DNA of 44,489 nt, taken from positions 1 through 44,489 of the forward strand of contig CADBPR010000067.1 in assembly GCA_902796555.1 (NCBI GenBank), read 5' to 3'. Both the position numbers and the translations under genes were made by a program. Within the stretch, counting starts at the first letter, position 1; each line of letters begins with the position of its first letter. Origin of the DNA: an uncultured Bacteroidia bacterium (GTDB lineage: Bacteria; Bacteroidota; Bacteroidia; Bacteroidales; UBA932). Positions 11,855 to 26,493 of the stretch are shown in pieces. The notes under the pieces were generated by a model. That model saw nothing but the letters and a program-made list of their open reading frames with translations. It did not search any database and had not been told where the DNA came from.

Positions 11855-13417
11855 ATGAACATTCAGCAGGAGAACATCCAGAAACTGGTCGACCGGCGGG
11901 CCAAAGCCCGGCTGGGCGGCGGAGAGAAACGCGTGGAAGCCCAGCATCAGAAAGGCAAGTTCACAGCGCGGGAACGCATCGCCCTGCTTCTGGACGAAGG
12001 CAGTTTCGAAGAATATGATATGTTCGTACAGCACCGCTGCACCCATTTCGGCATGGACAAGCAGCACTACGACGGTGACGGCGTCGTGACCGGCTGCGGC
12101 ACGATTGACGGCCGTCTGGTCTATGTGTTCGCCCAGGACTTCACGGTTACCGGCGGGTCGCTCTCCAAGACCATGTCCGAGAAAATCTGCAAGGTGATGG
12201 ACATGGCCGTCCGCAACGGCGCTCCCGTCATCGGGCTGAACGATTCCGGCGGCGCACGCATCCAGGAAGGAATTGACGCCCTGGCCGGATACGGCGAGAT
12301 TTTCGAACGGAACATTCTGGCTTCGGGCGTGGTCCCGCAGATTTCCGGCATTTTAGGACCCTGCGCCGGCGGAGCCGTCTACTCCCCCGCCCTGACCGAT
12401 TTCACCCTGATGGTCAAGAATACCTCTTATATGTTCCTGACCGGCCCGGCTGTCGTCAAGAGCGTCATCGGCGAAGAGGTCACCCAGGAAGAACTGGGCG
12501 GCGCCACCGTCCATGCCTCCAAGAGCGGCGTGGCCCATTTCGCGGCGGAAAACGAAGAAGAGGGCATCGCGACCCTGAAGAAACTGCTCAGTTTCCTGCC
12601 CCAGAACAACCGGGAGGAAGCGCCGCTGCGCCCCACTGCCGACCCGTACAACCGGGTGGACGATGCCCTGAACAGCATCATTCCCGACAACCCGAACAAA
12701 CCCTACGACATGTATGCCGTGATTCGCAGCATCGTGGATGACGGGGACTTCTTCGAGGTCCATCGCGCCTATGCCCGCAATATCATCGTCGGTTTCGCCC
12801 ACATGAACGGACGGAGCGTCGGCGTGGTGGCCAACCAGCCCGCCATGCTGGCCGGGGCCCTGGACATCAACGCGTCACGCAAGGCGGCCCGTTTCGTCCG
12901 CTTCTGCGACGCCTTCAACATCCCGCTTGTCACCCTCGTGGACGTGCCCGGCTTCCTCTGCGGCACCCATCAGGAATACGGGGCCATCATCGCCAACGGC
13001 GCCAAACTGCTGTATGCCTTCGGCGAAGCGACGGTGCCCAAAGTGACGGTCACCCTGCGCAAATCCTACGGCGGCGCCCATATCGTCATGAGCTGCAAAC
13101 AGCTCCGCGGCGACCTCAACTATGCCTGGCCCTCCGCCAACATCGCCGTAATGGGCGCGGACGGAGCCGTTGGCGTGCTCTATGCCAAGGACATGAAGGC
13201 GGCCGCCACCCCGGAAGAAGCCGCCCGCATCCGGGAGGAAAAGAAAAAAGAATACGACGACCTGTTCAACAACCCCTACCAGGCGGCCCAGAAAGGCTAC
13301 ATCGACGATATCATCGAGCCGCGCAACACCCGCTTCCGGGTCATCCGCGCCCTGGAGCAGCTGGCCGCCAAACAACAGGAAGTACCGGCCAAAAAACACG
13401 ACAATCTTCCGCTGTAA
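11855..13417 (+). CDS. mmdA: Methylmalonyl-CoA decarboxylase alpha subunit (carboxyltransferase)
   Basis: This 520-residue biotin-dependent carboxyltransferase transfers CO2 from (S)-methylmalonyl-CoA to carrier-bound biotin, yielding propionyl-CoA. Typical motifs are [70 protein letters not shown], and in the C-terminal half [24 protein letters not shown] and [10 protein letters not shown]. Length and both crotonase-type domains are complete. It could equally be annotated as a propionyl-CoA carboxylase beta chain, but the linked OadG, carrier and OadB genes show it belongs to a membrane decarboxylase. I chose the ATG at 11855 ([11 protein letters not shown]); a longer frame from 11789 overlaps the promoter. 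Confidence 0.95.
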
Positions 13418-13421
13418 GCCT

Positions 13422-14327
13422 ATGGATAGCAAGAAAATCATCCTGGCAGTCATCGGCCTGGTCACCGCCCTCGCGGCAGCAGCCCAGAACGTGTCGGACC
13501 TGATTCTGTCCGAGGCGGTTCCCTGCAATACGCAGGGCGTCACCGACGGATACGGCCGCCATACGGGCTGGGTGGAAATCACCAACACCTCGCAGGGAAC
13601 GGTGAATTTCGGCGGCTGCTTCCTGACGGACGACCGGACCCGGCCGCAGCGATACATGATTCCCAAGGGGGACGCGTCCACCCGGCTGGGGCCCCGGCAG
13701 GTCACTCTGCTGTGGTGCGGCGGCAACGCCGACGAAGGCACGTATTACACCAACTTCACCCTCACGCCCGGCGGCACGGTCTACCTGGTCAGCAATGACG
13801 GCAAGACCTTCATCGACAGTCTGTCCATTCCGGCTGCCCTGCCCGCCGACATGGCCGTCCGCAAAGTCGCCCGGGACAACAAGAAAATGGATTTCCGGAC
13901 CGAGTCCGAGCCGGCCGTTCCGTCGCCCATGACCATGAATACGGTCGGCATTGAAGAAACCGGCGCCCAACGGATGGCCCGGACCGACCCGAACGGATGG
14001 ATTCTCACCCTGACCAGCGTGTCGGTCGTGTTTGCAGCCCTGATTATCCTCTGGTGGATTTTCACCGGCATCGGCCGTGCCTTTACCCGCAAGGGGAAAG
14101 CGGCGCCGAAAAAAGAAACACCGAAAAAAGAAGCCCCGGCAGACGAAGCCGTCGCAGCCGCGATTGCCCTGGCCCTGGATATGGAACAGGACGGTGACAC
14201 CTACGCCGCCATCGCCCTGGCCCTGCACCTGTACCTGAGCGAATCCGTACACGATACGGAGAGCTATGTCATCACCATCCGGCCCACGGCCGCCCGTCAC
14301 GAAACATTCAGAAAATTACCCAGATAA
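13422..14327 (+). CDS. OadG-like delta subunit of the Na+-pumping decarboxylase, fused to a periplasmic lamin-tail domain
   Basis: This is a 301-residue protein. A signal peptide (residues 1-21) is followed by a lamin-tail-like beta-sandwich at about 24-140 (LILSEAVPCN, HTGWVEITNTSQGTVNFGGCFLTDD, GGTVYLVSNDG). A single membrane helix follows at 193-217 (GWILTLTSVSVVFAALIILW), then a lysine/alanine-rich cytoplasmic tail ending in LALHLYLSESVHDTE. OadG/MmdD subunits hold the cytoplasmic carboxyltransferase on the membrane beta subunit. Here a large extracytoplasmic domain has been added in front of the anchor, as in other Bacteroidota. It sits 4 bases after mmdA and 1 base before the carrier gene. 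The role of the outer domain is unknown. Confidence 0.85.
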   Translation: MDSKKIILAVIGLVTALAAAAQNVSDLILSEAVPCNTQGVTDGYGRHTGWVEITNTSQGTVNFGGCFLTDDRTRPQRYMIPKGDASTRLGPRQVTLLWCGGNADEGTYYTNFTLTPGGTVYLVSNDGKTFIDSLSIPAALPADMAVRKVARDNKKMDFRTESEPAVPSPMTMNTVGIEETGAQRMARTDPNGWILTLTSVSVVFAALIILWWIFTGIGRAFTRKGKAAPKKETPKKEAPADEAVAAAIALALDMEQDGDTYAAIALALHLYLSESVHDTESYVITIRPTAARHETFRKLPR

Positions 14328-26035: not shown

Positions 26036-26061
26036 TATAACAAATTAAATATCAAACAATT

Positions 26062-26493
26062 ATGCTTAATTTAGTACTTGGTTATCTCGGGCTTGGCCTG
26101 GTCCTCGCCCTCGCAGGCATCGGTTCTTCCATCGGTACCACCATCGCCGGCAACGCAGCTGAAGGTGCCCTGAAACTCAAACCGGAAGGTTCCGGTAACT
26201 ACATGGTGCTTTCCGCCCTCCCCGCCACGCAGGGTATCTATGGATTCGTCGCCTTCTTCATGCTGATGGGCAAGGTGGCCGAGCAGGGAGCCCTCGTTTT
26301 CGGTATCGGCCTGAGCGTCGGTCTGGTGTGCATGCTTTCCGCCATCCGGCAGGGCCAGGTCTGCGCCAACGGTATCGTCGGTGTCAGCCAGGGTCACGAC
26401 GTGTTCACCAACACCCTGATTTACGCCGCCCTTCCTGAATTCTACGCCATCCTCGGCCTCGTCGGCGCGGTGATGTCCGCCCTGATGATGTAA
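26062..26493 (+). CDS. atpK: V-type ATPase proteolipid subunit K, with Na+-type ligand set
   Basis: The 143-residue rotor-ring subunit has four membrane helices, a tandem of two c-type hairpins. The second hairpin carries the ion-binding Glu126 ([11 protein letters not shown]). Residues corresponding to the Na+ ligands of Enterococcus hirae NtpK (Leu61, Thr64, Gln65, Gln110, Glu139) are all visible: Leu53, Thr56, Gln57 in [10 protein letters not shown], Gln97 in AIRQGQ, and Glu126. This argues for Na+ rather than H+ coupling; the alignment is by eye. It is the last gene of the operon, 26 bases after I and just before a strong terminator. Confidence 0.95.

Follow-up and report, generated by a model that had tools for sequence, protein, structure and literature searches.

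Genes for a decarboxylase of the Na+-pump family often lie next to those for a predicted Na+-type V-ATPase in one family of Bacteroidales

Background

In Propionigenium modestum, a Na+ circuit leads from a decarboxylase to ATP. Similarly, glutaconyl-CoA decarboxylation in Fusobacterium nucleatum is coupled to a Na+-dependent F-type ATPase (F-ATPase; PMC3692424). In liposomes, the vacuolar-type ATPase (V-ATPase) of Enterococcus hirae can be driven by a Na+ gradient to produce ATP (PMC12018189), and for Bacteroides fragilis, Na+ residues in the K subunit have been described and Na+-driven ATP synthesis has been hypothesised; the Na+ ligands of a Bacteroides V-ATPase are already published (PMC10790697). 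The locus considered here is on contig CADBPR010000067.1 (assembly GCA_902796555.1) of an uncultured Bacteroidia bacterium (Bacteroidales; UBA932), positions 1 to 44,489 of which are called the window. Positions 11855-26493 comprise, on one strand, four genes for a biotin-dependent decarboxylase (mmdA, an OadG-type subunit with a lamin tail domain (LTD), a biotin carrier and mmdB), then three intervening genes, and then seven genes for a V-ATPase (subunits E, DUF2764, A, B, D, I and K). This arrangement may represent a Na+ energy cluster specific to the window's family, in which a biotin-dependent decarboxylase complex is followed by a compact Na+-type V-ATPase, a reading to which we give an even chance.

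No published cluster of mmd and V-ATPase genes was found among the titles and abstract beginnings of the best-ranked literature matches, a coverage that leaves out most subscription journals and is no proof of absence. What seems new is a decarboxylase and V-ATPase neighbourhood that is conserved in one family and that, in a single genus, is decoupled from propionate formation.

Conservation of the arrangement

The neighbourhood was surveyed in 149 genomes of the window's family, with the DUF2764 gene as the marker of this V-ATPase type. The beta subunit of the decarboxylase is present in 127 genomes and DUF2764 in 120, and 105 have both. In 49 of these 105 genomes, which belong to nine genera, DUF2764 lies downstream of the beta-subunit gene, in the same orientation and at 801-1200 bases, a spacing with room for little beyond subunit E. 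This count of direct cases was made from classified match rows, excluding any second weak row of a DUF2764 frame already counted, and three of the 49 rest on partial beta-subunit matches (G281, with a 37-residue fragment and a full copy elsewhere, G326 and G336). Nine more genomes, including that of the window, have the two genes on the same strand within 6 kb (58 of 105 in total); in six others they are within 20 kb, in one they are farther apart, and in 40 they are on different contigs. The comparison with other families took in 140 of the 149 outside genomes that have a beta subunit. None of the 58 outside genomes with both genes has the direct arrangement: in one the genes are 12 kb apart, in four more than 100 kb, and in 53 they are on different contigs. 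A contig break can hide adjacency in such cases, both inside and outside the family. The first-pass annotation, which was made from the window alone, had proposed a survey of this kind as a check, and the adjacency is indeed recurrent: it is a conserved arrangement in the window's family and no local accident.

Named relatives present a similar picture. Among the best 80 matches listed, for which the DNA around subunit A was examined, 41 have mmdB upstream in the same orientation; the gap is 17-218 bases in 17 of them and 1.2-7.3 kb in the other 24. In one further locus, mmdB is inverted. No mmdB was seen in the DNA examined for 36 relatives, several of which are short contigs, and two have no subunit E match. 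These relatives are mostly rumen and gut Bacteroidales, and some are Candidatus Cryptobacteroides. When the 17 short-gap loci are combined with 10 fetched loci chosen because they are direct, and the nearest ATG is taken as the start, the distance from mmdB to the subunit E gene, where the V-ATPase genes begin, is 17-221 base pairs (bp) in all 27.

Several findings weigh against a functional interpretation of this neighbourhood. Of the 120 family genomes with the V-ATPase, 15 have no beta subunit that could be detected, and seven of these are at least 95% complete, so the V-ATPase is not dependent on this pump; to these cases are added the 40 genomes in which the two sets lie on different contigs. 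Moreover, neighbours without an evident Na+ role are also shared. In nine loci compared, the YebC position is common to all (the sense frame is called in four, the antisense frame in five), a TPR gene occurs in seven, a recF-like gene in five, and a phosphoglucomutase gene directly after K in four. Because the flanking genes are partly conserved too, proximity alone is no proof of a functional link, and passive synteny is a serious rival: the two operons could have become neighbours once in the ancestry of the family, in a block that was rarely rearranged and whose parts have no functional or regulatory link. The 24 of 41 named loci with longer spacing fit this explanation. Also, a TAnnTTTG box occurs in 14 of the 27 short gaps and a complete promoter-like match in three, so transcription of the V-ATPase genes may start from a promoter of their own. 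However, passive synteny accounts less readily for a direct link that is found in nine genera, on the same strand and with short gaps, between two parts that are both Na+-related, or for the fact that subunit E of eight representatives is only 40-58% identical to that of the window. We place passive synteny somewhat below an even chance. The original proposal that the proximity of the operons reflects a shared function therefore gains from the recurrence inside the family and the lack of direct cases outside it, and loses from the partly conserved flanks.

Predicted Na+ sites of the two complexes

The K subunit of the window aligns with NtpK of E. hirae (PDB 2bl2) over 134 residues (phmmer E 5.8e-15). 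The five Na+ ligands proposed in the first-pass annotation (Leu53, Thr56, Gln57, Gln97 and Glu126) pair with L61, T64, Q65, Q110 and E139, so that all five ligand positions are filled and neither Gln57 nor Gln97 is misplaced. Y60 aligns with NtpK Y68, a residue that has been named as stabilising (PMC2359735). In an alignment of 85 rows (the window and 84 loci, with one contig present twice), Q57 and Y60 are found in all 85 and T56 in 84, with a single Ser. Q97 and E126 are found in 83 of 83 rows; two further rows end before these sites. Position 53, which contributes a backbone carbonyl, is Leu in 62 rows, Met in 20, Val in two and Ile in one.

By its complete proteolipid ligand set, the V-ATPase is predicted to be of the Na+ type. 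Some H+ enzymes retain a subset of these ligands, and enzymes of the Na+ type are able to transport H+ when Na+ is lacking (PMC2359735), so perhaps the enzyme uses H+ in vivo and its ligand set is a relic. However, the side-chain ligands are invariant over 83 to 85 rows save for one Thr-to-Ser change, and the authors of the same paper predict Na+ where the set is complete. We consider a relic very improbable.

Subunits A, B, D, E, I and K are encoded in one cluster, where E and I were matched below their curated cut-offs. No gene for subunit F, subunit G or a canonical subunit C was recognised in the cluster; the genome was not searched for F. An AlphaFold2 model of the DUF2764 protein (pLDDT 89) has V-ATPase subunit C or Vo chain M as the best four of its 76 PDB fold matches. 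The E values of these four matches are 0.45-1.3, none being significant singly, and the model is in keeping with a short V-ATPase subunit C. Two forms of DUF2764 occur within the family: a long one that matches about 265 positions of the profile, and a short one that matches at most 150. Genomes with the long form are absent from the 49 direct cases, and not all genomes with the short form show adjacency.

On the decarboxylase side, the parts of a biotin-dependent Na+ pump are present: a carboxyltransferase, a carrier with its Lys motif, a gamma/delta subunit, and a beta subunit with the Asp, Ser and Asn of the Na+ site. MmdB passes the TIGR01109 cut-off (463.9 versus 190.6 bits) and matches PDB 6iva at 349 bits. 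The GGADGPT motif with Asp150, noted originally, was found again, and D150, S331 and N361 align with D203, S382 and N412 of Salmonella OadB. Replacement of D203 or S382 in OadB abolished Na+ binding, and replacement of N412 weakened it (PMC7274780). The three residues are invariant in 56 of 56 MmdB rows.

The closest solved relative of MmdA is PccB (3n6r, 744 bits). Glutaconyl-CoA was dropped as a candidate substrate, as GcdA structures match MmdA at only 98-121 bits. MmdA scores 791.7 bits against TIGR01117, under the cut-off of 998.8, and three relatives tested are also under it. The shortfall was dropped as an argument against methylmalonyl-CoA decarboxylase, since relatives from two genera that have the mutase also score under the cut-off. 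Ile410 of MmdA, which is Asp in the propionyl-CoA carboxylase row (6ybp), was not used as a signature of acetyl-CoA, as the position is Ile in 48 of 53 rows and Cys in five.

The OadG-type subunit has an AlphaFold2 model of pLDDT 78, whose best fold matches are a DUF4876 protein (E 0.002) and lamin Ig domains (E 0.01-0.02). Where a fetched locus has both mmdB and an OadG match, the OadG frame is either 294-335 amino acids long (25 loci) or only 114-153 (22 loci). The short-OadG loci have only 367-513 bp between mmdA and the carrier gene, so the LTD part is missing from them.

The predicted Na+ circuit and its direction

A Na+ circuit shared by the two complexes is plausible, judging from their sequences. 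MmdB would export Na+ during carboxybiotin decarboxylation, as is known for its family, and Na+ would return through the V-ATPase to yield ATP. NQR and possibly RNF are predicted to feed the same Na+ pool, whereas the F-ATPase is predicted to use H+. The direct layout, with epimerase, decarboxylase and V-ATPase genes in succession, is probably the ancestral one. In the window, a promoter-like site 5' of mmdA, a hairpin 3' of K and short junctions count in favour of such a cluster.

The window genome, which is 83% complete, encodes other ion pumps. For NQR, nqrA, nqrB and the first nqrF piece are over their cut-offs and nqrC is just under; for RNF, rnfB, rnfC, rnfD and rnfG are over, and there are four proteins of the Rnf-Nqr family. 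The nqrF gene, on contig C30 (L125:8025-9296), is divided into two frames by an in-frame stop, which might be a sequencing error or decay. One F-type proteolipid gene is present, with Gly where the Na+ ligand set is expected to have Ser or Thr after the carboxylate (PMC2359735). The gene thus does not look like that of a Propionigenium-type Na+ F-ATPase, as judged on Gly at the expected Ser/Thr66 and not on Gln32. The original suggestion that the cell stores decarboxylation energy as a Na+ gradient and exchanges it with ATP agrees with the Na+-type residues on both sides, but these two complexes are not the whole circuit, because the genome also encodes NQR and RNF as well as an F-ATPase whose Ser/Thr Na+ ligand is missing.

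The F-type a subunit is found in 92 of the 149 family genomes. When the 83 genomes that are at least 90% complete are considered, 52 have both types of rotary ATPase, 27 only the V-type, four only the F-type, and none lacks both. One genome (G272), assembled as a single 2.38 Mb contig and 97% complete, has one proteolipid gene; this encodes a V-type K and is located about 7 kb downstream of mmdB in the same cluster. On present evidence, the V-type enzyme is the only rotary ATPase in part of the window's family.

Whether the V-ATPase synthesises or hydrolyses ATP is not readable from sequence. It might be an ATP-driven Na+ exporter as in E. hirae, in which case both halves of the cluster would export Na+ and serve Na+ homeostasis. 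The NtpK-type ligands would suit such an exporter, both ATP-making and ATP-consuming V-type enzymes are known from bacteria (PMC10790697, PMC12018189), and the window genome has an F-ATPase with which to make ATP. However, four proteins of the Rnf-Nqr family were found in each of 16 genomes tested, which makes other Na+ exporters likely, and the V-type is the only rotary enzyme found in the 27 of 83 genomes without a detected F-type ATPase. The authors of the B. fragilis study also favour synthesis, as a hypothesis (PMC10790697). An exporter is possible, but we lean against it.

The substrate in the window's genus

No methylmalonyl-CoA mutase was found in any of 11 genomes of the window's genus (that of the window, and ten others that are 98-100% complete), whereas it is present in four of four genomes from three other genera. 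Neither the window nor the representative of its genus has an epimerase gene ahead of mmdA, the rest of the genome not having been searched. In contrast, seven of eight genus representatives have genes of one and the same family immediately ahead of mmdA; two of these were tested, and both exceed the curated cut-off for methylmalonyl-CoA epimerase. With no mutase found, the decarboxylase in the window's genus has no known supply of methylmalonyl-CoA, and it is probably not a methylmalonyl-CoA decarboxylase of the succinate pathway; its fuel probably differs from what the name suggests. The name given to the enzyme in the first-pass annotation is thus unsupported as far as it implies a succinate-propionate role.

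The beta subunit was not found in six of the 11 genus genomes, each of which keeps the V-ATPase and one carboxyltransferase. In each of the 11 genomes, MmdA is the sole PF01039 protein detected, by a model that does detect the E. coli control. Five distinct loci (seven including duplicates: L050, L060, L082, which equals L123, L085, which equals L122, and L100) have mmdA and the carrier without mmdB; 243-264 bp separate the two genes, and OadG is 61-73 amino acids long. In these loci, the pump has lost its membrane component. The mmdB-less set of L060 is followed by metH and metF genes of full length, and then by the V-ATPase genes. OadG is at least 114 amino acids long in the 47 loci with mmdB and an OadG match. 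However, L095, L096 and L101 have mmdB with no OadG match and room for at most 292 bp, so OadG shrinkage is no clean marker of mmdB loss.

Each of 15 genomes tested has one protein that resembles OadA and the transcarboxylase 5S subunit, one of which was compared with solved structures. Its C-terminal biotinyl-like domain has FYGME or YYGME in place of MKM in the four sequences read (L129, L130, L131 and L132). With no lysine at the biotin motif, this protein would need a separate biotin carrier. The likeliest carboxyl donor, on weak sequence evidence, would be oxaloacetate delivered through this separately encoded subunit, and a common biotin hub fed by oxaloacetate is no more than a reasonable guess. 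It also counts against such a scheme that the protein, at 220 bits, is far below the OadA cut-off of 756, and that it may be a subunit of pyruvate carboxylase or of a transcarboxylase.

Alternately, MmdA and the carrier could be mainly biosynthetic in the window's genus, producing malonyl-CoA as an acetyl-CoA carboxylase or by transcarboxylation from oxaloacetate, with MmdB as an optional valve that possibly works in reverse, as a Na+-driven carboxylation. Decarboxylase pumps of this kind can be reversed; our literature search gave no paper on reversal. A biosynthetic role would be consistent with MmdA as the sole PF01039 protein, with the mutase not found in the 11 genomes, with the retention of the carboxyltransferase in the six genomes without a beta subunit and the short spacing and short OadG of the five mmdB-less loci, and with the OadA-like protein in 15 of 15 genomes. 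Against it, MmdB of the window is intact with its Na+ residues, and only one genus was examined in depth. We think biosynthesis unlikely, though worth keeping in view.

The Na+ energy cluster that we prefer has a stronger version, in which the genes form a one-operon Na+ power unit. Here, the co-transcribed V-type enzyme would be a Na+-driven ATP synthase, sometimes the sole rotary ATPase, and in the window's genus the biotin hub would be freed from propionate formation, running on oxaloacetate or backwards to malonyl-CoA. We regard this full combination as improbable.

Features of the window

The features are listed in Table 1. The original gene identities and coordinates were right, and the two operons were recognised correctly; the three genes between them had been omitted. 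The mechanical open reading frame of mmdA begins at TTG 11789, and ATG 11855 is taken as its start. The promoter-like motif rests on what we take to be the Bacteroidetes consensus, and it has three matches in the window versus 0.37 expected. From mmdB through the three intervening genes to subunit E, the junctions are 6, 10, -4 and 97 bases. The last of these contains a TATCTTTG box of the TAnnTTTG type at about position 19238, so an internal promoter is possible. The hairpin 3' of K is absent from the output of a separate terminator scanner. Beyond K, positions 26500-31300 are AT-rich (GC 41-50% per 2 kb versus 52-62% elsewhere) and separate K from a phosphoglucomutase gene at 31416-32867. 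This segment looks like an insertion, because four genus representatives have a phosphoglucomutase-type gene directly after K.

Table 1. Features of the decarboxylase and V-ATPase locus in the window
Feature	Position	Strand	Details
Promoter-like TTTG-N19-TATATTTG	11788-11818	+	Bacteroidetes type; 36 bases 5' of mmdA ATG
mmdA, acyl-CoA carboxyltransferase (alpha subunit)	11855-13417	+	PF01039 E 3.6e-197
OadG-type gamma/delta subunit with N-terminal LTD domain	13422-14327	+	PF04277 E 1.3e-13; PF00932 E 5.2e-9
Biotin carrier, ESMKME motif	14329-14769	+	PF00364 E 6.5e-20 (frame 14266-14769)
mmdB/oadB, carboxybiotin decarboxylase, Na+-pump beta subunit	14776-15918	+	PF03977 E 3.8e-145
Omp85-like outer-membrane protein (weak), intervening gene 1	15925-17232	+	PF01103 E 4.1e-5, 23.7 bits versus cut-off 24
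DUF389 membrane protein, intervening gene 2	17243-18319	+	PF04087 E 8.3e-46
Homocysteine S-methyltransferase domain protein, intervening gene 3	18316-19185	+	PF02574 E 6e-21
V-ATPase subunit E	19283-19888	+	PF01991 E 4.2e-5, 23.5 bits versus cut-off 24.2; same place in relatives
DUF2764 protein, proposed short V-ATPase subunit C	19890-20540	+	PF10962 E 1.7e-19
V-ATPase catalytic subunit A	20559-22316	+	NF003220 750.5 bits versus cut-off 470
V-ATPase subunit B	22306-23643	+	NF002555 679.1 bits versus cut-off 431
V-ATPase subunit D	23643-24245	+	NF002565 206 bits versus cut-off 189
V-ATPase subunit I (a)	24242-26035	+	NF004429 E 6.2e-61, below its cut-off
V-ATPase proteolipid K, NtpK-type Na+ ligands L53, T56, Q57, Q97, E126, and Y60	26062-26493	+	
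Intrinsic terminator-like hairpin 3' of K	26509-26555	+	-30 kcal/mol, z -9.2

Significance and comparison with known systems

Uncultured gut and rumen Bacteroidales, to judge from their genes, often pair enzymes of the Na+-pump family with a rotary ATPase predicted to run on Na+. With a Na+-pump decarboxylase alongside and no F-type ATPase detected in 27 of 83 genomes that are at least 90% complete, the window's family is one in which Na+-driven ATP synthesis by V-type rotary enzymes of gut anaerobes could be tested directly. The mutase-less genus, in which the beta subunit is sometimes lost, represents a natural experiment on other uses of a biotin decarboxylase complex. Because the relatives with names come from the rumen and the gut, the locus also bears on rumen energetics and propionate formation.

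The MmdB of the window resembles the beta subunit of the Salmonella oxaloacetate decarboxylase (PDB 6iva) in the equivalents of D203, S382 and N412 (PMC7274780). Unlike in that enzyme, the alpha subunit is an acyl-CoA carboxyltransferase and not OadA, and OadG has an LTD domain. The methylmalonyl-CoA decarboxylase of Xylanibacter ruminicola is also a Bacteroidales pump with an OadG subunit, and functions there in the propionate pathway; its genes are at two loci and the mutase is present (PMC11575231), whereas no mutase was found in the window's genus. In common with B. fragilis, there is a V-type operon with DUF2764 as its second gene and Na+-coordinating K residues, together with a separate F-type ATPase and NQR (PMC10790697). 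In contrast, the word 'methylmalonyl' is absent from the main text of that paper, and direct adjacency was seen in none of the 58 genomes outside the window's family. The V-ATPase of E. hirae (NtpK, PDB 2bl2) has the same five Na+ ligand positions, but the cluster in the window has no recognised F, G or canonical C gene, and the E. hirae enzyme is said to run as an ATP-driven Na+ pump. The proposed circuit shares its principle with those of F. nucleatum and P. modestum, in which the Na+ gradient from a biotin-dependent decarboxylase drives a rotary enzyme that makes ATP. Those organisms use F-ATPases of the Na+ type, whereas the F-type c subunit here has no Ser/Thr ligand and the predicted Na+-type enzyme is a V-ATPase, encoded near the decarboxylase genes.

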